A stretch of DNA of 64,000 nt from Bradyrhizobium sp. 149 (GTDB lineage: Bacteria; Pseudomonadota; Alphaproteobacteria; Rhizobiales; Xanthobacteraceae), in NCBI RefSeq assembly GCF_023073915.1, contig NZ_JADPKK010000023.1, forward strand, positions 744,001-808,000. Reading direction: 5' to 3'. A program made the translations under genes and the position numbers. The notes beneath the pieces were generated by a model that saw only the letters and a list, made by a program, of their open reading frames with translations, was not told the DNA's origin and made no database searches. Each line of letters opens with the position of its first letter. The first letter of the stretch is position 1. This document shows, in pieces, positions 42,356 through 55,018 of the stretch.

Positions 42356-43756
42356 CTAACCCACGGGATCGATCGGCGACGGCGGCACGCCGCCCGCCTC
42401 GATCGCCTCGCCCGCGAGGAGGCAGAGATCCTCGCGATAGCGGCCGGACACGATGTGCACGCCGACCGGGGCCTTGCCGACGAGGCCGGTCGAGACCACG
42501 AGGCCCGGCAGGCCCATGAAGGGAATGGCGATCTGCGGCAGCTGTGCTTCCCAGACGCGCTTGAAGCTGTCGTCGTCCTTGCGGTCGAGATGATCGGGGA
42601 ACGGCAATTCGCCGGAGACCGGCGTCAGCAGCACGGCATATGTCTCGAAAAACAGCATCCATTCGCGGGTCAGCGTGGCGCGGCGGGTCAATGCCTTGGC
42701 GTAATTCGCCTGGTCCATCGGCGTGACCCTGGCGCGGTTGCCGCGCAGGCACGCCAGCGCGCCGGGATCGCCCTCACGCTCGGCCATTTCGAGTTGGGCC
42801 TCGTAGCCATCGCCGAGCCAGAGTTTTGTCTGCCACTCGACCGCTTCACGCATCGGCGGGGTGTTTTCGATCAACTCGACAGTCCAGCCCGCGCGTTCCA
42901 GGCGCTTGCCGGCATCGATGACGGCCGCCTTCACCTCGGAAGCCGTCGCAAGGCCGTCCGGATTGAGGCAGAGCGCGGCGCGCTTGGGCCGCGCAGGGCC
43001 TTCCAGCGGCACGGGCACAAACCAGGGATCGCGGATGTCGCGGGCCGACATGGCCGCGAGGGAAATCCTGATGTCGTTGACGGTGCGCGCCAGCGGTCCC
43101 GACACCGCCATGATCTGGGGCCCGACCGGGCGCTCCGGCAGGGCCGGATTGAAGGCTGGGATGCGGCCCAGGGTCGGGCGCAAGCCATGCACGCCGCAGG
43201 CATAGGCGGGATAGCGGATCGAGCCGGCAATGTCGGTGCCATGGGCGATATGACCGATGCCGGCCGCGACCGCCGAACCGGCGCCGCCGGACGAGCCGCC
43301 CGGCGTCAGCGAGGCGTCGCGGGGGTTCTTGGTGTCGCCGTGGACCAGATTGGTGGTGAACCAGCGATAGGAGAAGGCCGGGCAATTGGTGCGCCCAAGG
43401 AGAATGGCGCCCGCTTTGCGGAAATTGGCGACCACCGGATTGTCCTCGCTCGCGATCAGGTCGCGCTGGAGGTTCAGGCCGTTGGTGGTGGCAAAGCCCT
43501 CCTGGTCGACATTGGCCTTGATGGTGACGGGCACGCCGGCCAGCACGCCGGGGTCCTCCCCCCTCGCAATGGCGGCATCGACGGCGTCAGCCTGCTTGAG
43601 CACGTCCTCCGGCCGGTGGTCGATCACGGCGTTGAGGCTCGGATTGACGGCATCGAGCCGGGCGAGGCCCGCCTGCGCGGCCTCCCTGGCGGAGACTTTT
43701 TTGGCTTTGACGAGGTTGGCGAGGTCGGCGGCCGACAGGCGCCAGAGATCTTGCAT
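42356..43756 (-). CDS. amidase signature family hydrolase
   Basis: 466 residues. Catalytic Ser-cisSer-Lys triad: Lys in TIKANVDQEG, the Ser pair in TPGGSSGGAGSAVAAGIG followed by TDIAGSIRYPA. The family cleaves amides (aliphatic, aromatic or indoleacetamide-like); substrate not assignable. GGAGC upstream of ATG 43756. It is the first gene of the amidase-GPX-DUF3297 operon. Confidence 0.92.
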   Translation of the reverse strand: MQDLWRLSAADLANLVKAKKVSAREAAQAGLARLDAVNPSLNAVIDHRPEDVLKQADAVDAAIARGEDPGVLAGVPVTIKANVDQEGFATTNGLNLQRDLIASEDNPVVANFRKAGAILLGRTNCPAFSYRWFTTNLVHGDTKNPRDASLTPGGSSGGAGSAVAAGIGHIAHGTDIAGSIRYPAYACGVHGLRPTLGRIPAFNPALPERPVGPQIMAVSGPLARTVNDIRISLAAMSARDIRDPWFVPVPLEGPARPKRAALCLNPDGLATASEVKAAVIDAGKRLERAGWTVELIENTPPMREAVEWQTKLWLGDGYEAQLEMAEREGDPGALACLRGNRARVTPMDQANYAKALTRRATLTREWMLFFETYAVLLTPVSGELPFPDHLDRKDDDSFKRVWEAQLPQIAIPFMGLPGLVVSTGLVGKAPVGVHIVSGRYREDLCLLAGEAIEAGGVPPSPIDPVG

Positions 43757-44454: not shown

Positions 44455-44535
44455 ATGGCCTGGAAAGCCCCGAAGATCGTCGAAGTGCCCTGTGGCATGG
44501 AAATCAACATGTATGTGAGCGCCACCCGCAAGTAA
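44455..44535 (+). CDS. pqqA: PQQ precursor peptide PqqA
   Basis: 26 residues: MAWKAPKIVEVPCGM, then E16-I-N-M-Y20, ending VSATRK. Glu16 and Tyr20 are the residues PqqE cross-links to build pyrroloquinoline quinone. GGAGAG is 6 bases upstream of ATG 44455. First gene of the pqq cluster, 117 bases before pqqB. Confidence 0.97.
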   Translation: MAWKAPKIVEVPCGMEINMYVSATRK

Positions 44536-44584
44536 GTGGCTGGCGAACTGCGTTCAGCGCAGGTGGGTCTTTCGGTCCTGGCAG

Positions 44585-44603
44585 GTTTCCGGACGACGGA
44601 AAC
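44585..44603 (+). promoter_or_regulatory. hairpin between pqqA and pqqB, possible partial terminator
   Basis: GTTTCCG (44585-44591) pairs with CGGAAAC (44597-44603) around 5 bases. It has no T-run, so it would be leaky, which would raise pqqA transcript over the downstream enzymes. Confidence 0.45.
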
Positions 44604-44652
44604 TGTGTTGGCCTGAGATCCACCTCGCAGCGTTCCTTCCAGGAGACGGATC

Positions 44653-45582
44653 ATGCTTCGCGTCGTCGTCCTGGGCGCCGCAGCCGGCGGCGGAGTGCCG
44701 CAATGGAATTGCGGTTGCGAGGGCTGCCGGACGGCCCGTGAAAACGGCCAAGAGCTCCAGAGAACCCAGGCCTCGGTCGCTTTCAGTAGCGACAGCGAGC
44801 ACTGGTTCCTGATCAACGCCTCCCCCGACCTCCGCCAGCAATTGAATGCCACGCCGCAGCTGCATCCGAAGGCAGGCGCGCTGCGCCATACGCCGATCGC
44901 AGGCGTGATCCTGACCAACAGCGAAGTGGATGCGGTGACAGGACTACTGTCGATGCGCGAGGGCTCGCCTTTCACGATCTATGCGCATGAGAAGGTGCTG
45001 GCGATCCTGAAGGCCAACAGCATCTTCGACGTGCTGAACGCGAAGAACGTGCGGCGCCAGCCCATCGACATCAATGAGCCGTTCGAGCCGCGGTTGCGGG
45101 ACGGCGCGCGCTCGGGACTTGAGGTGCTGCCCTTCGCGGTCTCCGGTAAATCGGCCTGGTACCTGGAAGGCAAGGCGCATCCGGGCGGCGACACCGGCGA
45201 GGGCGATACGCTGGGGCTGAAGATCACCGACAAATCGACCGGCAAATGCTTCTACTTCATCGCCGCCTGCGCAGAAGTCACGGACGCGCTCAAGGCCGAG
45301 ATCGATGGCGCCGCGCTGGTGTTCTTCGACGGCACGGTGTGGCAGGACGACGAGATGATCAGGGCCGGGCTTAGCCACAAGACCGGCAAGAGCATGGGCC
45401 ATGTCGCGATGTCCGGCGACCACGGCGCCATCGCGCGGCTCGCCGATCTCACACTCGACAGGAAGATATTTCTGCATATCAATAACTCGAACCCGGCGCT
45501 GCTGCCCTCGTCCCCCGAGCGCCAGGCCGCTGAAGCGGCGGGCTGGCAAATACCCGCCGACGGAACGGAGATCGTGCTGTGA
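44653..45582 (+). CDS. pqqB: PQQ biosynthesis protein PqqB
   Basis: 309 residues of the metallo-beta-lactamase fold. N-terminal GGGVPQWNCGCEGC (Cys20, 22, 25) is the usual zinc site. PqqB is an oxygenase of the diamino-tyrosine intermediate. The HxHxDH metal motif known in PqqB is not clear here: the matching stretch reads TNSEVDAVTGLL, with Asp93 but Ala94. AGGAGA lies 6 bases before ATG 44653. Its stop overlaps the pqqC start. Confidence 0.94.
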   Translation: MLRVVVLGAAAGGGVPQWNCGCEGCRTARENGQELQRTQASVAFSSDSEHWFLINASPDLRQQLNATPQLHPKAGALRHTPIAGVILTNSEVDAVTGLLSMREGSPFTIYAHEKVLAILKANSIFDVLNAKNVRRQPIDINEPFEPRLRDGARSGLEVLPFAVSGKSAWYLEGKAHPGGDTGEGDTLGLKITDKSTGKCFYFIAACAEVTDALKAEIDGAALVFFDGTVWQDDEMIRAGLSHKTGKSMGHVAMSGDHGAIARLADLTLDRKIFLHINNSNPALLPSSPERQAAEAAGWQIPADGTEIVL

Positions 45583-46370
45583 ATGCCGCGTCATTGACTG
45601 GAATGACCTCGCTCTCGATCGGCAAGGACATCAAGCTCAACTCGGCCGAGGAACTCGAGGCGACGCTGCGCCATATCGGAGCGACGCGCTATCACAGCCT
45701 GCATCCGTTCCATAGACTGCTGCACGGCGGCAAGCTGAACAAAGGCCAGGTGCAAGCCTGGGCGCTCAACCGCTACTATTACCAGAGCACGATCCCGATC
45801 AAGGACGCGGTGGTGATCTCGCGCTTCCGCGACCGCGCCACGCGGCTGGAATGGCGTCACCGCATCGAGGACCATGACGGCGATATCGGCAGCGAGGGCG
45901 GCATCGAGCGCTGGTTGAAGCTGACCGAAGGCCTCGGGCTGGACACGGCTTACGTGGAATCGACCGAGGGCATCTTGCCGGCGACGCGTTTTGCGGTGGA
46001 AGCTTATGTGCACTATTGCCGCGAGAAGTCGCCGCTGGAAGCGATCGCCTCCTCGCTCACCGAATTGTTTGCGCCCAACCTGCACGAGGAGCGCATCTCC
46101 GGCATGCTGGAGCACTACGACTTCGTCAATCCCGACACCATGAGCTACTTCAAGCGCCGCCTGGCGCAGGCGCCGCGCGACGCCGGGTTTGCGCTCGACT
46201 ATGTCAAGGCGCATGCCAGGACGCCGGAAGAGCGGGCATCCGTCTGCAACGCGCTGATCTTCAAGACCAACGTGCTATGGGTACAGCTCGACGCGCTCCA
46301 ACACGCCTATGTCGAGGGCCAAATTCCGCCGGGCGCGTTCGTGCCCAAAGAACACCAGAAGGCGAGCTGA
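45579..46370 (+). CDS. pqqC: PQQ synthase PqqC
   Basis: 263 residues, all-helical oxidase that closes the last ring and oxidises the quinone without metal. Conserved blocks: RYHSLHPFHRLLHGG, WALNRYYYQ, RHRIEDHDGDIG, LTELFAPNLHEERI. The GTG at 45579 overlaps the pqqB stop (GTGA) and has GGAG 8 bases ahead, so I prefer it to ATG 45603, which would give the commoner N-terminus MTSLSIGKD. Confidence 0.95.
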   Translation: MNAASLTGMTSLSIGKDIKLNSAEELEATLRHIGATRYHSLHPFHRLLHGGKLNKGQVQAWALNRYYYQSTIPIKDAVVISRFRDRATRLEWRHRIEDHDGDIGSEGGIERWLKLTEGLGLDTAYVESTEGILPATRFAVEAYVHYCREKSPLEAIASSLTELFAPNLHEERISGMLEHYDFVNPDTMSYFKRRLAQAPRDAGFALDYVKAHARTPEERASVCNALIFKTNVLWVQLDALQHAYVEGQIPPGAFVPKEHQKAS

Positions 46371-46379
46371 GGAACACCG

Positions 46380-46691
46380 ATGGCCGGGCCGCGTCACATC
46401 AGCGTCAGCGAGACCAGCCGGCCGGTTCTGCCGCGGCACGCCAAGCTGAAATATGACGAGACGCGGAAGGTCTGGGTGATCCTGGCGCCCGAACGCGTGC
46501 TGGCGCCGGACGAGATCGCGGTCGAGGTCTTGCAGCTCTGCGACGGCGAACGCAATGTTGGCGACGTTTCCGACCAGCTCGCGGCAAAATACACCGCGCC
46601 GCGCGAGGCGATCCTGGCCGACGTCATCGTCATGCTGCAGGATCTCGCCGACAAGGGCTTTCTCACGGAGGCCCGGGAGAAGACCTCATGA
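46380..46691 (+). CDS. pqqD: PQQ biosynthesis chaperone PqqD
   Basis: 103 residues; RiPP recognition element that presents PqqA to PqqE. Winged-helix pattern: RPVLPRHAKLKYDETRKVW, LQLCDGERNVGDVSDQLA, ADVIVMLQDLADKGFL. GAGGAA precedes ATG 46380; the stop overlaps the pqqE start (ATGA). Confidence 0.95.
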   Translation: MAGPRHISVSETSRPVLPRHAKLKYDETRKVWVILAPERVLAPDEIAVEVLQLCDGERNVGDVSDQLAAKYTAPREAILADVIVMLQDLADKGFLTEAREKTS

Positions 46692-47887
46692 GCGATGTGC
46701 TCGGCAATCCCGTCGTCCCGCCCGACGCCAGCGACAGCCTCGCGGTGCTGGAGAAGCAGCGCTCGACGGCGGAGACATTCGGCATTCCGCTGGCCGTGCT
46801 GCTCGAGATCACCCATCGCTGCCCACTGCAATGTCCCTATTGCTCCAACCCGGTCGAGCTCGACCGCTCGGGCAAGGAGCTGAGCACCGAGGAATGGAAG
46901 AAAGTCCTGAGCGAGCTCGCCGAGATCGGCGTGCTCCAGGTCCATTTCTCCGGCGGCGAGCCGACGGCGCGCAAGGATCTGGTCGAGCTGGTCAAGCATG
47001 CCAGCGACGTCGGCCTCTACACCAATCTCATCACCTCGGCGGTGCTGCTGACGCGCGAGCGGCTGAGCGAGCTTGCCGATGCCGGGCTCTGCCACGTGCA
47101 GATCAGCTTCCAGGGCGTTGAAGAAGGCCTCGCCGATCGCGTCGCTGGCTACAGAGGCGGGCACCACAAAAAGCTCGAAGTGGCAAAATGGACCCGCGAG
47201 CTCGACCTGCCGCTCACCGTCAACGCGGTGATGCACCGGCAGAACCTGCACCACCTCCCCGACATCATCCAGATGTCGGTCGATCTCGACGCCGACCGGC
47301 TCGAGGTCGCGAACGTCCAGTATTACGGCTGGGCGTTGAAGAACCGCGCCGCGCTGATGCCAACGGTGGCGCAGCTCGACGAGTGCACCCGCATCGTCGA
47401 GGAGGCGCGCGAGCGGCTGAAAGGCCGGCTGACGATCGACTATGTCGTGCCCGATTATTACGCGCTGCGGCCGAAGAAGTGCATGGGCGGCTGGGGCCGG
47501 CAATTCTTCAACATTTCGCCGGCCGGCAAGGTGCTGCCCTGCCATGCCGCCGAAAGCATCACCGGGCTCGACTTCGAATCGGTGCGCTCCAACCATTCGA
47601 TCGCCTGGATCTGGCAGAACTCGGACGCCTTCAACCGCTATCGCGGCACCGGCTGGATGAAGGAGCCGTGCAAGACCTGCGAATTCCGCGAGATCGATTT
47701 CGGCGGCTGCCGCTGCCAGGCCTTTGCGCTGACCGGCGACGCCGCCAACACCGATCCTGCCTGCGCGCTGTCGCCGCTGCACGAGACCATCTTCAAGCAG
47801 GCCGAGCGCGAGGCCGAGGGCGAAACCAACCGCTTCCTCTATCGCAACTTCGCCGGCGGCACTCTGGAATCCGGGAATGATGCCTGA
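46688..47887 (+). CDS. pqqE: PqqA peptide cyclase PqqE (radical SAM)
   Basis: 399 residues. Radical SAM cluster motif CPLQCPYC (Cys45, 49, 52), FSGGEPTARKD for SAM binding, and a C-terminal SPASM domain with CMGGWGRQFFNISPAG and the CKTCEF...GGCRCQ cysteines for extra Fe-S clusters. Forms the Glu16-Tyr20 carbon-carbon bond of PqqA. The start ATG overlaps the pqqD stop, and its last 11 bases overlap the next gene. Confidence 0.96.
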   Translation: MSDVLGNPVVPPDASDSLAVLEKQRSTAETFGIPLAVLLEITHRCPLQCPYCSNPVELDRSGKELSTEEWKKVLSELAEIGVLQVHFSGGEPTARKDLVELVKHASDVGLYTNLITSAVLLTRERLSELADAGLCHVQISFQGVEEGLADRVAGYRGGHHKKLEVAKWTRELDLPLTVNAVMHRQNLHHLPDIIQMSVDLDADRLEVANVQYYGWALKNRAALMPTVAQLDECTRIVEEARERLKGRLTIDYVVPDYYALRPKKCMGGWGRQFFNISPAGKVLPCHAAESITGLDFESVRSNHSIAWIWQNSDAFNRYRGTGWMKEPCKTCEFREIDFGGCRCQAFALTGDAANTDPACALSPLHETIFKQAEREAEGETNRFLYRNFAGGTLESGNDA

Positions 47888-48863
47888 CGCCGACGCGGCC
47901 AATGCAGTCAAGCGCGCCGATCCCTTTGCGCCACTGACCTCCGAAATGCTCGATGTCGGCGACGGCCACGAGCTCTATGTCGAGGGCATCGGGCGTGCCG
48001 GCGGAATCCCGGCGGTCTATCTGCATGGCGGCCCCGGCAGCGGTTGCCAGCCCGACCATCGCCGGCTGTTTGATCCCGACCGTTTCCATGCCGTGCTGTT
48101 CGATCAGCGCGGCTGCGGCCGCAGCCGGCCGAAGGGATCGCGGCAAGACAACACCACGGCGCACCTGGTCGCGGACATGGAAAAGATCCGCGAAAAGTTC
48201 GGCTTCGACAACTGGATGGTGGTCGGCGGCTCCTGGGGCGCGACGCTGGCGCTGGCCTATGCGCAGGCGCATCCCGAGCGCGTCTCCGCGATTGCGCTGC
48301 GCGCGACGTTTCTCGGCACGCGCGCTGAAGTCGAGATCGCCTTCACCTCGCGCCTGTCGCAGTTCTACCCCGCGCTCTACGAGGATTTTCTGAGCGTGCT
48401 GCCGGCCCAGGAGCGCGAGCGGCCGGTCAACGCCTATTGGCGCCGCATCCTCGATGCCGATCCGGCCGTGCATGGTCCGGCATCGCGCGCCTGGCACGAC
48501 ACCGAGCGCGCCTTGTCGGAGCACAAGGCGGCCAAGACGCGGCTGGACCTGGCCTCGCTGAACGTTTGGCGCACATTGCCGGCGACGCCGTTCATGGAGG
48601 CGCATTATTTCGTCCAGGACAGCTTCATGACGGAGAACCAGTTGTTGAGGAACGCCGGCAAGCTCATCGGCATTCCCGGCATCATCGTCCAGGGCCGCTA
48701 CGATCTGTTGTGTCCTCCCGAGACATCCCACGCGCTCGCGAAGGCGTGGCCGGGTTCCGAGATTCGCATCGTGGAAGAAGCGGGCCATTCGCTCTATGAT
48801 GGCGGCGTGCGGGACGCGGTCATGAAGTCGATCGCAGATCTCGCTTCGAAGATCTCGCGATAA
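47877..48863 (+). CDS. pip: prolyl aminopeptidase (S33) coupled to pqqE
   Basis: 328 residues, alpha/beta hydrolase. Oxyanion motif HGGPGSG, nucleophile Ser119 in GGSWGATLAL, Asp in QGRYDLLCPP, His in EEAGHSLYDGG. It removes N-terminal proline from peptides. The start ATG 47877 (or 47880) lies inside the end of pqqE, implying coupled translation. No PqqF-type M16 protease is visible, so this enzyme could help process or recycle the PqqA peptide; that role is inference. Confidence 0.92.
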   Translation: MMPDADAANAVKRADPFAPLTSEMLDVGDGHELYVEGIGRAGGIPAVYLHGGPGSGCQPDHRRLFDPDRFHAVLFDQRGCGRSRPKGSRQDNTTAHLVADMEKIREKFGFDNWMVVGGSWGATLALAYAQAHPERVSAIALRATFLGTRAEVEIAFTSRLSQFYPALYEDFLSVLPAQERERPVNAYWRRILDADPAVHGPASRAWHDTERALSEHKAAKTRLDLASLNVWRTLPATPFMEAHYFVQDSFMTENQLLRNAGKLIGIPGIIVQGRYDLLCPPETSHALAKAWPGSEIRIVEEAGHSLYDGGVRDAVMKSIADLASKISR

Positions 48864-48877
48864 CGGGACACAAGAAA

Positions 48878-49555
48878 ATGCCGCTCGCCGGGAAAGGCAT
48901 GCTGCTGACGTCGATGAACATCGACGCAGCTGATGAAGCCGAGTTCAACCGCTGGTACGATCGCGAGCATCTGGAAGAGCGCGTCGCGATCGAGGGTTTC
49001 CTGGAGGCGCGGCGCTATGTCGCGCATGCCGCCAATCCCAAATATCTGTCGCTGTATTCGACCGCGACGCTCGACGTGCTCGACAGTCCCGCCTACCGGG
49101 CGCGGCTCGCCAACCAGACCGAATGGTCGCGGCGGACCATGGCGCATTTCAAGAACATGCTGCGTGTGGTCGCGCGCATCACCGTCAGCAACGGCACCGG
49201 CCGCGGCGCCGCGCTCGGCCTCATACGGCTGCGGCCAACGCAGGACAATGCGGGTGCATGGCGTGATGCACTGCAAGAAAAGCTGGCACCGGAAACGCGC
49301 GAGGGCATCATCTCGATGCATCTGCTCGAAAGCGAGCCGGAATTATCAGGCGCAACTGCGGACATTCCGGCGACGCGCAACGAAGGCGCGCGCGACTGGT
49401 TCGTGCTGATCGACGGCACCCATGTCGGCGCGGTCTCGGCTGTCATCGCCGAACGCTTCACCGGCCCTGCTGCATCACCCTTCCCGCTGCCCGTCTCCGT
49501 CGGCACTTACGGCCTGATGTGGGACCTCGCGAAGAGCGACATCGCAGTCGGTTGA
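48878..49555 (+). CDS. DUF4286 family protein, probable last gene of the pqq unit
   Basis: 225 residues with two ferredoxin-like (EthD/dimeric alpha-beta barrel) halves. The first has NIDAADEAEFNRWYDREHLE and FLEARRYV; the second repeats the fold near WFVLIDGTHVGAVSAV. Function unknown. It follows pip by 14 bases on the same strand, suggesting co-transcription with pqqABCDE-pip. No signal peptide. Confidence 0.85.
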   Translation: MPLAGKGMLLTSMNIDAADEAEFNRWYDREHLEERVAIEGFLEARRYVAHAANPKYLSLYSTATLDVLDSPAYRARLANQTEWSRRTMAHFKNMLRVVARITVSNGTGRGAALGLIRLRPTQDNAGAWRDALQEKLAPETREGIISMHLLESEPELSGATADIPATRNEGARDWFVLIDGTHVGAVSAVIAERFTGPAASPFPLPVSVGTYGLMWDLAKSDIAVG

Positions 49556-50349: not shown

Positions 50350-52149
50350 ATGAAACCGACCGATATCGCGGCCCCCGACTACTTTCATAAAGTGGTCGAT
50401 TGCCAATGGGCCTGTCCAGCGCACACCCCGGTTCCCGAATATATCCGACTGATCGCACAAGGCCGCTACAGCGACGCCTACATGATCAATTGGAAATCGA
50501 ACGTGTTTCCCGGGATTCTGGGACGCACCTGCGACCGTCCATGCGAGCCGGCGTGCCGCCGCGGACGCGTCGAGGAAACGCCGGTCGCGATCTGCCGCCT
50601 CAAGCGCGTCGCCGCTGATTTCAAGGACGATATCACGCAACGCCTGCCGAAGCCGTCCGCGAAGAACGGCAAGCGCGTCGCATTCATCGGAGGTGGCCCG
50701 GCCTCGCTGACGGTGGCGCGCGACCTCGCGCCGCTCGGCTATCATTGCACCGTGTTCGACGGCGATCCCGAAGCCGGCGGCATGATGCGGACGCAGATCC
50801 CGAAATTCCGCCTGCCCAATTCGGTCATCGACGAGGAGACCGGCTACATCCTCAACCTCGGCGTCGACTTCAAGGGCGGTCACCGCATCGAGAGCATGAA
50901 GGCGCTGCTCGCGGAGAAGTATGACGCGATCTTCGTCGGCTCCGGCGCGCCGCGCGGTCGTGAGCTCGACGTTCCCGGCCGGAAAGAGGCTGCCGCCCAC
51001 GTCCATATCGGCATCGACTGGTTGTCCTCGGTCTCGTTCGGCCACACCGACAAAATAGGCAAGCGCGTGATCGTGCTCGGCGGCGGCAACACCGCGATGG
51101 ATTGCTGCCGCACCGCGCGCCGGCTCGGCGGCGAGGACGTCAAGGTGGTCGTGCGGTCCGGCTTCGAGGAGATGAAGGCCTCGCCCTGGGAGAAGGAGGA
51201 CGCACTCCACGAGGACGTCCCGATCCTCAACTTCCTCGTCCCCACAGCCTTCGTCCACGACAACGGCAAGCTCACCGGCATCACCTTCCAGAAGGTGAAG
51301 GCCGAATACGACGCCAAGGGCCGCCGCAACCTCGTGCCCTCGGGCGAGCCGGACCAGACCATCGAATGCGACGACGTGCTGGTCGCGGTCGGTCAGGAGA
51401 ACGCCTTCCCCTGGATCGAGCAGGATTGCGGCATCGAGTTCGACAAATGGCACATGCCCAAGGTCGATCCGAAAACCTTCGTCTCGACCAACCCAAAGGT
51501 GTTTTTCGGCGGCGACGCCGCGTTCGGTCCGAAGAACATCATCTGGGCGGTGGCGCAGGGCCATGATGCCGCCCTGTCGATCCACAAGATGCTCTCGGGC
51601 GAGGACATCACCGAGCGGCCATTGCCGGAGGTGCACATCTCCTCGCAGAAGATGGGCATCCACGAATGGAGCTATGACAACGACATCTCCAACGACAAGC
51701 GCTTCAAGGTGCCGCATCGCGACAAGGTGATCGCGCTGAAGGACATCCGCACCGAGGTCGAGCTCGGCTACGACGTCAAGCTCGCGCTCGGCGAAGCCCA
51801 TCGCTGCCTGAACTGCGACGTGCAGACCGTGTTCTCGACCTCGCTCTGCATCGAGTGCGATGCCTGCGCCGACATCTGCCCGATGGATTGCATCACTTTC
51901 ACGGACAATGGCGAGGAAGGCGACCTCCGTCAGCGCCTGAAAGCGCCCTCGCTGCACCCCGACCAGGATCTTTACGTCTCCACCGATCTCAAGACCGGGC
52001 GCGTGATGGTCAAGGACGAGGACGTCTGCCTGCATTGCGGGCTGTGTGCCGAGCGCTGTCCCACCGGAGCCTGGGACATGCAGAAATATTTGATCGAGAT
52101 GACTCACGCAGGTTCAGCATGTCCGACAAAAAGCCGATCAGCAGCGTAA
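50350..52149 (+). CDS. GltD-like NAD(P)/FAD oxidoreductase with ferredoxin-type C-terminus
   Basis: 599 residues. The N-terminal Fe-S domain of the glutamate synthase small-chain type has VDCQWACPAHTPVPEYI and GRTCDRPCEPACRRG. Then come FAD binding (VAFIGGGPASLTVARDL) and NAD(P) binding (VIVLGGGNTAMDCCRTARRL). The C-terminus adds two 4Fe-4S motifs, CIECDACADICP and CLHCGLCAERCP. It should pass electrons between NAD(P)H and the 2-oxoacid oxidoreductase encoded next. It overlaps the following gene by 31 bases. GGTAGGA precedes ATG 50350. Confidence 0.9.
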   Translation: MKPTDIAAPDYFHKVVDCQWACPAHTPVPEYIRLIAQGRYSDAYMINWKSNVFPGILGRTCDRPCEPACRRGRVEETPVAICRLKRVAADFKDDITQRLPKPSAKNGKRVAFIGGGPASLTVARDLAPLGYHCTVFDGDPEAGGMMRTQIPKFRLPNSVIDEETGYILNLGVDFKGGHRIESMKALLAEKYDAIFVGSGAPRGRELDVPGRKEAAAHVHIGIDWLSSVSFGHTDKIGKRVIVLGGGNTAMDCCRTARRLGGEDVKVVVRSGFEEMKASPWEKEDALHEDVPILNFLVPTAFVHDNGKLTGITFQKVKAEYDAKGRRNLVPSGEPDQTIECDDVLVAVGQENAFPWIEQDCGIEFDKWHMPKVDPKTFVSTNPKVFFGGDAAFGPKNIIWAVAQGHDAALSIHKMLSGEDITERPLPEVHISSQKMGIHEWSYDNDISNDKRFKVPHRDKVIALKDIRTEVELGYDVKLALGEAHRCLNCDVQTVFSTSLCIECDACADICPMDCITFTDNGEEGDLRQRLKAPSLHPDQDLYVSTDLKTGRVMVKDEDVCLHCGLCAERCPTGAWDMQKYLIEMTHAGSACPTKSRSAA

Positions 52150-53966
52150 ACGACTTCGTCGTCCGCTTCGCCAACGTCAACGGATCGGGCTCGGCCAGCG
52201 CCAACGAGATGTTTGCGCGCGCGATCCTGCGCCATGGCGTTCCGGTCAGCCCCCGTAACATCTTCCCCTCCAACATCCAGGGCCTGCCGACCTGGTACGA
52301 GGTGCGGGTCACGGAAGACGGCCATCTCGGCGCCCGCGGCGGCGTCGACATGATGGTGGCGATGAACCCGCAGACCTGGGACAAGGACGTCGCCGGCATC
52401 GAGCCCGGCGGCTATCTGTTCTACGATTCCACCAAGCCGATGCCATCGACGAAATTCCGCGACGACATCACCGTGATCGGCGTGCCCCTGACCGCGATCA
52501 CCAACTCGACTTACACCGATCCGCGCCAGCGCCAGCTGTTCAAGAACATCATTTATCTCGGCGCGCTCTCGGCGCTGCTCGACATGGACCCGAAACTGAT
52601 CGAGCAGCTGATCGGCGAGCAGTACAAGGGCAAGGAGAAGCTCTTGTCCTCCAACGTCCACGCGCTGCATCTCGGCCGCGACTGGGCGCTGCAGAACCTG
52701 AAATGCCCGACCGGGCTGCGGGTGAAGAAGTCCGACAAGGTCGGCGACCGCATCTTCATCGAGGGCAACAGCGCCGCCGCGCTCGGCGCCGTCTACGGCG
52801 GCGCCACCGTGTGCGCGTGGTATCCGATCACGCCGTCCTCGTCGGTGGCGGAGGCCTTTACCGCCCACTGCAAAAAGTACCGGCATGATCCGGAGTCCGG
52901 CAAGGCGAAATACGCGATCGTGCAGGGCGAGGACGAACTGGCCTCGATCGGCATCGTGATCGGCGCCTCCTGGAACGGCGCGCGCGCCTTCACCGCCACC
53001 TCCGGCCCCGGCATCTCGCTGATGACGGAGTTCATCGGCCTGTCGTATTTCGCCGAAATCCCGGCCGTGATCATGAACATCCAGCGCGCCGGTCCGTCGA
53101 CCGGCATGCCGACCCGCACCCAGCAATGCGACATCATCGCCTGCGCCTATGCTTCGCATGGCGACACCAAGCACGTGCTGCTGTTCCCGGAGGATCCCGC
53201 TGAAGCGTTCGAGTTCGCGGCCGCGGCTTTCGATCTCGCCGAGCGGCTCCAGACCACGATCTTCCTGATGCTCGACCTCGATATCGGCATGAACCACCGG
53301 CTCTGTCGTCCGCTGAAGTGGGACGACGCCAGGCAATATGACCGCGGCAAGGTGATGACCGCGGAGATGCTGGACGAAGGCCGTGATTTCGGCCGCTATC
53401 TGGACGTCGACGGCGACGGCATCCCCTACCGGACCTATCCCGGCACGCATCCGACCAAGGGCTCCTATTTTACCCGTGGCACGTCGCGCGATCGCTATGC
53501 GCGCTACTCCGAAGAAGGCACGGTCTACGTCGACAACATGCAGCGTCTCATGCGCAAGTTCGAGACGGCGCAGGATCTGGTGCCGCGGCCGCTCCAGGCC
53601 AATGCGGAACGGCCGACCAAATACGGCGTGATCTATTTCGGCTCGACCACCCCGGCGATGGACGAGGCGATCGGACTTTTGGAGGCACGGGGCCATCAGC
53701 TCGACCGCCTGCGCATCCGCGCCTTCCCATTCCACTCGAGCGTGGCGAGCTTCCTGGCCGAGCACGATTTCGTCTACGTCGTCGAGCAGAATCGCGACAG
53801 CCAGCTGCGCCAGCTCATCGTCAACGAGAACGGCATCGACCCGGTGCGGCTGGTGCCGATCGTGCATTACGACGGCTCGCCGATCACCGCCCGCTTCATC
53901 GCAAAAGCTATTGGCGACCACCAGGATCACCTCAAGGTGACCCCGCTCCGCAAGGCCGTGTCATGA
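52119..53966 (+). CDS. korA: 2-oxoacid:acceptor oxidoreductase, fused gamma-alpha subunit
   Basis: 615 residues. Residues 1-190 are the gamma domain (FVVRFANVNGSGSASANEMF), and from about 205 the alpha domain with the pyrimidine-site motif YPITPSSSVAEAF and TSGPGISLMTEFIGLSYFAEIPA. Same layout as 2-oxoglutarate:ferredoxin oxidoreductase KorA; the 2-oxo substrate (2-oxoglutarate, branched-chain or pyruvate) is not decided by sequence. ATG 52119 (MSDKKPISSVN) begins inside the end of the flavoprotein gene. Its stop overlaps the beta-subunit start. Confidence 0.92.
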   Translation: MSDKKPISSVNDFVVRFANVNGSGSASANEMFARAILRHGVPVSPRNIFPSNIQGLPTWYEVRVTEDGHLGARGGVDMMVAMNPQTWDKDVAGIEPGGYLFYDSTKPMPSTKFRDDITVIGVPLTAITNSTYTDPRQRQLFKNIIYLGALSALLDMDPKLIEQLIGEQYKGKEKLLSSNVHALHLGRDWALQNLKCPTGLRVKKSDKVGDRIFIEGNSAAALGAVYGGATVCAWYPITPSSSVAEAFTAHCKKYRHDPESGKAKYAIVQGEDELASIGIVIGASWNGARAFTATSGPGISLMTEFIGLSYFAEIPAVIMNIQRAGPSTGMPTRTQQCDIIACAYASHGDTKHVLLFPEDPAEAFEFAAAAFDLAERLQTTIFLMLDLDIGMNHRLCRPLKWDDARQYDRGKVMTAEMLDEGRDFGRYLDVDGDGIPYRTYPGTHPTKGSYFTRGTSRDRYARYSEEGTVYVDNMQRLMRKFETAQDLVPRPLQANAERPTKYGVIYFGSTTPAMDEAIGLLEARGHQLDRLRIRAFPFHSSVASFLAEHDFVYVVEQNRDSQLRQLIVNENGIDPVRLVPIVHYDGSPITARFIAKAIGDHQDHLKVTPLRKAVS

Positions 53967-55018
53967 CCTACATCGCAAAGCCGAAATTCCACCATCCCGG
54001 GCTGAAGAAGAACGAGCTCGGCTACACCCATCGCGACTACGAAGGCAAGATCTCGACGCTGTGCGCCGGCTGCGGCCATGACTCGATCACGGCCTCGATC
54101 ATCGAAGCCTGCTATGAGCTTTCGATCGAGCCGCATCGCGTCGCCAAGATCTCCGGCATCGGCTGCTCGTCGAAGACGCCGGACTATTTCCTCGGCAATT
54201 CGCACGGCTTCAACTCGGTGCACGGCCGCATGCCGTCGGTCCTGACCGGCGCCAATCTCGCCAACCGCGACCTGATCTATCTCGGCGTCTCCGGCGACGG
54301 TGATTCCGCCTCGATCGGCTTCGGCCAGTTCGCGCATTCGATCCGGCGCGGCGTCGACATGACCTATATCGTCGAGAACAACGGCGTCTACGGCCTGACC
54401 AAGGGCCAGTTCTCGGCCACCGCCGACCGCGGCTCGAAGTCAAAGAAAGGCGTCACCAACACCGACAACGCCATCGACCTCGTCGCGATCGCGCTGCAGC
54501 TCGGCGCCACCTTCGTCGCGCGCTCGTTCTCCGGTGACAAGACCCAGCTGGTGCCGCTGATCGCGGCCGCGATCCGCCACAAGGGCGCGTCGTTCATCGA
54601 CGTCATCAGCCCCTGCATCGCCTTCAACAACCATGCCGGCTCGACCAAGAGTTTTGACTATGTCCGCGAGCACAATGACGCGGTGAACCGGCTCGACGTG
54701 CTGGTCGGCCGCGATCCCATTGCGGTGGATTACGCACCAGGCACGGTGCAAATGGTCGAGCAGCATGACGGCAGCAGTATCGCGCTGCGCAAGATCGACG
54801 CCGACTACGATCCGCATGACCGGCTCGGCGCCCAGACTTTCCTGCAAAAGCACGCGGCAAAGGGCCAGATCGTCACCGGCCTGCTCTACGTCGACCCTGA
54901 TGCGGAAGATCTGCACGAGCATCTCAACACCGTCGAAACGCCGCTCAACACGCTGGAAGCGGACGCGCTCTGCCCCGGGTCGGCGGTGCTGGACAAGTTC
55001 AACGCCAGACTGCGGTGA
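53963..55018 (+). CDS. korB: 2-oxoacid:acceptor oxidoreductase, beta (TPP) subunit
   Basis: 351 residues. Thiamine diphosphate site: GDGDSASIGFGQFAHSIRR and the ENNGVYGLTKGQ loop; an N-terminal LCAGCGHDSITAS and ISGIGCSSKTPDYF carry the Cys residues for the 4Fe-4S cluster. With KorA it decarboxylates a 2-oxo acid to acyl-CoA and releases low-potential electrons. The start overlaps korA by ATGA. No separate ferredoxin gene is present; the flavoprotein at 50350 carries the ferredoxin-like clusters instead. Confidence 0.93.
   Translation: MTYIAKPKFHHPGLKKNELGYTHRDYEGKISTLCAGCGHDSITASIIEACYELSIEPHRVAKISGIGCSSKTPDYFLGNSHGFNSVHGRMPSVLTGANLANRDLIYLGVSGDGDSASIGFGQFAHSIRRGVDMTYIVENNGVYGLTKGQFSATADRGSKSKKGVTNTDNAIDLVAIALQLGATFVARSFSGDKTQLVPLIAAAIRHKGASFIDVISPCIAFNNHAGSTKSFDYVREHNDAVNRLDVLVGRDPIAVDYAPGTVQMVEQHDGSSIALRKIDADYDPHDRLGAQTFLQKHAAKGQIVTGLLYVDPDAEDLHEHLNTVETPLNTLEADALCPGSAVLDKFNARLR

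Follow-up and report, generated by a model that had tools for sequence, protein, structure and literature searches.

Whether an aminopeptidase takes part in the maturation of pyrroloquinoline quinone (PQQ) is the question raised by a 64-kb stretch of the genome of Bradyrhizobium sp. 149 (contig NZ_JADPKK010000023.1, positions 744,001 to 808,000; hereafter the window), in which pip, a gene for an S33 prolyl-aminopeptidase-like protein, begins inside the end of the pqqABCDE cluster. The peptidases that free the cross-linked Glu-Tyr from the precursor peptide PqqA are unsettled in many bacteria. In the accessible parts of the pertinent reports, PqqA is cut by PqqF, PqqG or PqqH and/or other proteases and the Glu-Tyr dipeptide is the probable substrate of PqqB (PMC12423496), and it is asked in what way a single protease might accomplish four distinct cleavages (PMC2294125). 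The PQQ peptidase of Rhodopseudomonas palustris could not be named there, Pip being absent from the portion of the table available (PMC10531626), and for Hyphomicrobium, which has no PqqF/G/H genes, PqqL or other peptidases were invoked (PMC12423496, in part); an excerpt of PMC9953165 uses the name 'PqqE' for an M16 protease. The original prediction, made from the letters of the window, had proposed that the S33 peptidase trims PqqA at proline and that a DUF4286 protein encoded next to it assists. As described herein, pip encodes a member of a divergent subfamily, designated Pip-Q. We put the chance that this putative aminopeptidase works in PQQ maturation at about even; such a role is plausible because a distinct subfamily is tied to PQQ.

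The subfamily was delineated in a tree of 154 Pips, from which L241 and L253 (partial) and L249 and L250 (longer than 400 aa) were left out; here and below, codes beginning with f, g, G and L denote families, genera, genomes and loci, respectively. Pip-Q formed a clade of 76 members (Shimodaira-Hasegawa-like approximate likelihood ratio test 100, stem 0.59) that took in all fetched pqq-linked Pips together with unlinked Pips of other families, although the members of f10, f25, f119 and f131 were long-branched and their internal placement is unsure. The window Pip-Q exceeded the cut-off of TIGR01249 and, against Pfam and NCBIfam, matched alpha/beta hydrolase (Abhydrolase_1/S33) models only, with no M16 domain and no match to peptidase S9 (prolyl oligopeptidase) models at E ≤ 0.01. 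Its AlphaFold2 model had a predicted local distance difference test score (pLDDT) of 93.7, with 1wm1 as the nearest solved fold.

According to the accessible part of PMC9147577, the hydrophobic pocket of the Serratia prolyl aminopeptidase (PAP) is formed by Phe139, Tyr149 and Phe236, together with Glu204 and Glu232. In this Serratia numbering, the Ser/Asp/His triad, Glu204, Glu232 and Phe139 were conserved in 76/76 Pip-Q proteins (in window numbering, catalytic S119, D276 and H304, and N-terminus-binding E210 and E241), and Phe236 in 53 of the 76, the window Pip among them. Tyr149, in contrast, was replaced by Ala, Val, Gly or Thr in every Pip-Q (A155 in the window), whereas 72 of the 78 ordinary Pips have Phe, Tyr or Trp at this position. 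Likewise, Trp148 was retained in 29/76 Pip-Q against 78/78 other Pips, and at least 69/76 Pip-Q have Phe, Tyr, Ile or Ala in place of the Arg230 found in 76/78 other Pips; signature prolines at window positions 235 and 238 were each present in 74/76. By sequence, Pip-Q is thus a member of the S33 prolyl aminopeptidase family that we do not file as a proline-specific enzyme because the aromatic wall of the proline pocket has been lost with Tyr149, and its members are nevertheless labelled prolyl aminopeptidase in annotation. We infer that Pip-Q may have kept aminopeptidase activity, its pocket being wider and no longer suited to proline.

These residues bear directly on the notion that Pip-Q is a true prolyl aminopeptidase taking the N-terminal proline off PqqA fragments. 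The TIGR01249 score, the conservation of Glu204/Glu232 and Phe139, and the position of Pro12 four residues ahead of Glu16 in the window PqqA are all consistent with it. The loss of Tyr149 throughout the subfamily and the PqqA sequences themselves render it highly improbable: Pro12 was present in 22 of the 35 linked PqqA peptides and replaced by A, S, Q or C in the other 13, and it is yet found in PqqA at L182-L184, loci of genomes in which no Pip match was obtained (one of these genomes, G683, being 74% complete). Pro6, as judged by eye, was near-universal with or without Pip. Accordingly, neither Pro12, which is variable, nor Pro6, which is independent of Pip, was retained as a general Pip target. 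On the other hand, all PqqA peptides recovered from Pip-Q genomes have Met or Leu directly ahead of the cross-linked Glu; since the PqqA motif search, whose motif admits eight different amino acids at this position, did not recover the peptide at L310-L314, L318 and L319 (7 of the 20 pqq loci of Pip-Q genomes), this statement rests on the remaining ones. Because Met or Leu precedes Glu in all of the recovered peptides and Pro12 is inconstant, trimming of Met/Leu would be preferred over trimming of proline. In f61, the loci L315, L316 and L317 carry two or three near-identical tandem pqqA genes upstream of pqqE.

The tie between Pip-Q and PQQ was assessed in family, order and class samples of 198, 297 and 385 genomes, which overlap. 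When a Pip-Q profile of 29 rows (A1) was run on the same class genomes that had been searched for pqqE, 20 of them scored 415-530 bits and the next score was 394 and below; the signature residues were present in 20/20 of these top genomes and absent from the following 10/10. Among these 20 Pip-Q genomes, 16 had pqqE against 68/385 overall, or, counted by genus, 10/12 against 39/264 (p = 7e-7); inclusion of G232 (369 bits), which is Pip-Q by tree and has pqqE, gave 17/21. In the order sample, all genomes were searched with the window Pip and matches of at least 50% identity were counted, so that members below 50% could be missed; pqqE was present in 23/23 Pip-Q genomes against a base of 105/297 (by genus, 8/8 against 37/114, p = 2e-4). 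From this sample G561, at 50% identity, without pqqE and ordinary by tree, was excluded from the Pip-Q count. The fragment G181 entered none of the counts. In the family sample 52 of 54 Pip-Q genomes (family f1) had pqqE; for G739, G794, G836 and G847 the assignment relied on score and for G620 on identity, in place of the tree; the ordinary Pips of g277 number 11, one of which was placed on the tree. With the three samples united by hand count, pqqE occurred in 80/86 Pip-Q genomes. Ordinary Pips of the class sample, taken as the 175 genomes with another Pip match, showed no such association (pqqE in 35/175 against 33/210 of the others, p = 0.29, hand count).

The co-occurrence held even where Pip-Q and pqqE are unlinked, and it was also visible in the PqqE phylogeny. 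On a PqqE tree of 133 rows the Pip-Q label required 7 changes against 44 in shuffles (0/500 as low), a contrast that near relatives inflate. Within f1, one PqqE type comprised 51 fetched rows, 47 of them from Pip-Q genomes, against 1 of the 22 rows of other types; the types were delimited on the tree once it had been inspected, and part of the pattern may mirror genus relationships. Taken together with the diagnostic residues, the co-occurrence with pqqE makes Pip-Q a recognisable gene family.

Physical linkage was surveyed by coordinates. In the family sample, pqqE was present in 125/198 genomes and a TIGR01249 match at E ≤ 1e-40 in 66, with both in 64, and pip adjoined pqqE in 33 of the 125 (11 in g1, 10 in g278, 7 in g417, 2 in g413 and 3 in g431). 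The survey of pqqE genomes in the class and order samples took in 160 of 169, and beyond f1 adjacency was found in G582 (f178), with the order pqqABCDE-pip, and in G562 (f188), where pip precedes the co-oriented pqqA by 198 nt. The adjacency is therefore not confined to a few close strains, occurring under five genus codes of f1 and, with a single genome apiece, in two other families, and the start of pip inside pqqE that the original prediction had noted proved to be a recurrent feature: the overlap is 11 nt in 28 of the 33 fetched loci where pip follows pqqE (G582 being one of the 28), and in the other five it is 8 nt (two loci), 14 nt (one) and 17 nt (one) or gives way to a 93-nt gap (one, the start probably mis-called). 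The linkage probably arose twice, once with pip after pqqE (f1, f178) and once with pip before pqqA (f188). Because the 11-nt overlap is common to those 28 loci including G582, the former arrangement would probably represent one old event followed by later separations.

Several observations weigh against a function in PQQ maturation, and some of them speak for the alternative that Pip-Q is a general peptide-salvage aminopeptidase without a role in PQQ synthesis, whose proximity to pqq and shared lineages with it are historical. Gene maps of related genera place pip, with or without the DUF4286-like gene (duf), beside an amidase gene in the absence of pqq (g431, g399 and g419); at L143, L145, L147, L149, L151, L153, L155, L157, L159, L161-L163 and L176 the corresponding site has the order amidase-pip(-duf), pqqABCDE being located elsewhere or missing altogether, so that the pqq genes departed from this site, or never reached it, while pip remained. 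On the Pip-Q tree, in which L318-L321 were mislabelled, the linkage changed at least 8 times. Six Pip-Q genomes (G760, G856, G078, G191, G155 and G253), two of which are only 68-79% complete, have neither pqqE nor a pqqC match. In the class sample, Pip-Q is missing from the majority of genomes with pqqE and is therefore not required for PQQ in general; four fetched f1 genomes of the PqqE type that accompanies Pip-Q likewise gave none. The idea that Pip-Q and PqqE had been transferred together was not borne out: when the Pip tree was put to an approximately unbiased (AU) test, ordinary descent was not rejected (p = 0.25) and nothing pointed to transfer. No PqqA feature that marks Pip-Q genomes was found: Met/Leu before Glu is usual without Pip-Q too, and a shared PqqA tail, YACA, was discarded as a marker since it also occurs in Pip-Q-negative genomes. 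Nine rows of the A1 profile came from class genomes picked for pqqE, which favours such genomes (the order sample is unaffected by this choice), and G232, whose score is within the ordinary range, was recognised since it had been fetched for having pqqE, so that a comparable Pip-Q would go unnoticed in a genome lacking pqqE. The co-occurrence counts follow lineages rather than independent events, a problem that counting by genus only lessens, and the pocket argument for specificity is drawn from sequence alone. Finally, the window pip is the sole TIGR01249 match over the cut-off in the 6.7-Mb host genome (G000, with the window at G000:C11:744001-808000), a finding that also counts in favour of a PQQ role, although the enzyme could on this account be the housekeeping one.

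A pure salvage function is nonetheless judged less likely than a role in PQQ maturation. Pip-Q accompanies pqqE in 12 family codes, whereas ordinary Pip is not enriched; pqqE is present in 8 of 11 Pip-Q genomes of at most 1.8 Mb; pip occurs on either flank of the pqq operon; Pip-Q tracks the PqqE type within f1; and G435, G471 and G582 hold an ordinary Pip alongside Pip-Q. With regard to the surroundings of Pip-Q, G834 has two pqq clusters (L126 and L127), only one of which carries pip behind its pqqE. No shared neighbour of unlinked Pip-Q was seen among the 34 loci compared, and the amidase adjoining pip in f131 was GatA-like by eye and 26-35% identical to the window amidase. A second pqqE stands some 5 kb from Pip-Q at L260 (G276:C81), accompanied by genes that appeared pqqD-like, SerC-like and for a small membrane protein by eye, a neighbourhood resembling the pqqAED-puuD-serC-pyrD cluster described in the accessible part of PMC12423496.

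The original prediction had also pointed to the lack of an M16 protease in the cluster. This is correct for the cluster, in which no M16 gene was found, but not for the genome, which has three M16 matches elsewhere, one at G000:C1:136853 and a tandem pair at G000:C23:79404-81232. All of the 40 genomes tested have M16, and the idea that Pip-Q stands in where M16 is missing was dropped. Two matches lay side by side in 30/40 genomes, with and without Pip-Q, a count that supports no conclusion because the weaker M16 partner scores near the threshold. The 10 pqqE genomes without side-by-side matches were G538, G562, G582, G440, G365, G125, G059, G075, G354 and G118, in which the weaker partner may score under the threshold and some assemblies are fragmented.

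Considering these findings, a role of Pip-Q in PQQ maturation might be envisaged as follows. PqqE together with PqqD would cross-link Glu16 and Tyr20 of PqqA, and an endopeptidase, perhaps the unlinked M16 pair, would cut the cross-linked peptide. Pip-Q would then take off the last residue or residues N-terminal of the cross-linked Glu, as Met or Leu could enter its pocket once the aromatic wall is gone (Tyr149 → Ala), and PqqB and PqqC would complete the cofactor. Only tentatively, and with distinctly less confidence than for a role in maturation as such, we propose that Pip-Q may be a dedicated PQQ exopeptidase of an alphaproteobacterial branch, whose specificity would have shifted from proline to Met/Leu and which would release a free Glu-Tyr intermediate. 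For the trimming of PqqA by this S33 peptidase as first conceived, the PQQ connection stays plausible through linkage and co-occurrence, and it is the cutting at proline that found no support.

The features of the locus, called from the list of open reading frames (ORFs) and NCBIfam/Pfam profile searches, are collected in Table 1. All five pqq genes exceeded the NCBIfam cut-offs, and the genes from the cluster (44455-47887) through the 225-aa ORF run in the same direction, the largest intergenic gap being the 117 nt between pqqA and pqqB. The cross-link residues of PqqA, E16 and Y20, were assigned via the ExxxY rule. The same gene order was found on the contigs of L342-L353, eleven of which are from Bradyrhizobium; the other, L346, was deposited as Frankia sp. 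RB7 and has a Bradyrhizobium-type locus (88% Pip identity), and it is probably mislabelled or contaminated.

Table 1. Genes of the pqq-pip region and its flanks; positions count from the first letter of the 64-kb window.
Feature	Position	Strand	Evidence and remarks
Amidase	42356-43756	-	PF01425; flanks the pqq cluster
pqqA, precursor peptide MAWKAPKIVEVPCGMEINMYVSATRK	44455-44535	+	TIGR02107 46.5 bits, PF08042 41.8 bits
pqqB	44653-45582	+	TIGR02108 392 bits
pqqC	45579-46370	+	TIGR02111 363 bits; 4-nt overlap with pqqB
pqqD	46380-46691	+	TIGR03859 75 bits
pqqE	46688-47887	+	TIGR02109 619 bits; 4-nt overlap with pqqD
pip (Pip-Q, S33 prolyl-aminopeptidase-like)	47877-48863	+	TIGR01249 303 bits (cut-off 259.75); ATG within pqqE, 11-nt overlap
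225-aa DUF4286-like ORF	48878-49555	+	14 nt after the pip stop; weak Pfam matches
NAD(P)-binding/ferredoxin oxidoreductase-like gene	50350-52149	+	NF009410 412 bits, under the cut-off of 516

Downstream, the interval 50350-55018 holds genes for a 2-oxoacid:acceptor oxidoreductase alpha subunit, a beta-subunit-like protein (under the cut-offs) and an NAD(P)-binding ferredoxin partner, the last of which also adjoins pip-duf in several genera according to the gene maps. The DUF4286-like gene stands 14 nt behind pip, as first described, and its label is weak: the score against DUF4286 (PF14114; E = 0.026, 15.2 bits) fell below the gathering score of 25.8, and plasmid homologues of 31-42% identity, among 80 matching records, are annotated 'DUF4286 family protein'. 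The best AlphaFold2 model (pLDDT 82) showed two tandem ferredoxin-like domains of the dimeric alpha/beta barrel, ABM-type, a fold that is tentative because the other four models reached pLDDT 42-52. The best Foldseek matches were the putative monooxygenases 3mcs, 3f44 and 9kdp (template modelling score, TM, 0.56-0.61).

Among the fetched loci this gene adjoins Pip-Q only in f1, there also without pqq, and it was not found beside pip at the loci of g417, G582, G562 and G809, the rest of those genomes not having been searched. Homologues at L422-L425 sit on four unrelated plasmids (of Phyllobacterium, Variovorax, Sulfitobacter and Pantoea), all bearing the DUF4286 annotation, and in 4/4 regions read an amidase is encoded no more than about 3 kb away, along with either a transporter or the corresponding binding protein. 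These placements raise the alternative that Pip-Q and the DUF4286-like protein serve catabolism as a gene pair, in one unit with the adjacent genes for the amidase and the 2-oxoacid:acceptor oxidoreductase, and that pqqABCDE is an insertion into this unit. The amidase-pip-duf order without pqq, the plasmid homologues near amidases and the oxoacid oxidoreductase-like genes at 51855-55018 speak for such a unit. We consider it improbable, as the plasmid amidases are only 27-29% identical to that of the window, pqq-pip occurs without duf in g417, G582 and G562, and the 11-nt overlap shared across genera suggests that pqqE-pip is the old unit in the family. The suggested helper function of the DUF4286-like protein found no support in these same clusters and plasmid contexts, and the protein is probably a passenger outside the PQQ pathway.

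If Pip-Q does act on PqqA, it would supply a pathway step and a peptidase class that were not found assigned in the literature searched. That search, which most subscription papers lay outside, returned no text joining 'prolyl aminopeptidase', PqqA and PQQ, nor 'proline iminopeptidase' and pqqE; the passages available contained none linking an aminopeptidase of the Pip family to PQQ, and PMC11064500, in the part accessible, has both terms only in unrelated references.

Among known systems, Pip-Q stands closest to the Pip/PAP enzymes of Serratia marcescens and Xanthomonas (1qtr, 1wm1 and 1azw), with which it shares the fold (TM 0.86-0.88, 40-44% identity), the Ser/Asp/His triad, Glu204, Glu232 and Phe139; it differs from them in the small residue at Tyr149, the mostly lost Trp148 and Arg230, the prolines at window positions 235 and 238, and its genomic association with PQQ synthesis. 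The DUF4286-like protein shares a tandem ferredoxin-like fold with the ABM-like proteins 3mcs, 3f44 and PenE (9kdp), in one of five models and at 5-10% identity, from which no function is transferable. With PqqF and PqqF/PqqG, Pip-Q would have in common an action on cross-linked PqqA, but these are zinc M16 endopeptidases, and the M16 pair of the host is unlinked. PqqH and PqqM are related to Pip-Q through the alpha/beta-hydrolase fold. They are, like Pip-Q, serine peptidases tied to pqq genes, but Pip-Q matches Abhydrolase_1/S33 and no S9 model at E ≤ 0.01, whereas the Pseudomonas PqqH/PqqM are classed as dipeptidyl/acylaminoacyl peptidases in the accessible part of PMC10531626. The proposed division of labour also has a parallel in archaea. 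The tricorn interacting factor F1, an S33 aminopeptidase, trims the peptides produced by the tricorn protease, and with 17-19% identity to Pip-Q in the fold matches (1mt3 and 1mtz) this archaeal, tricorn-tied enzyme offers an analogy of working rather than of membership.

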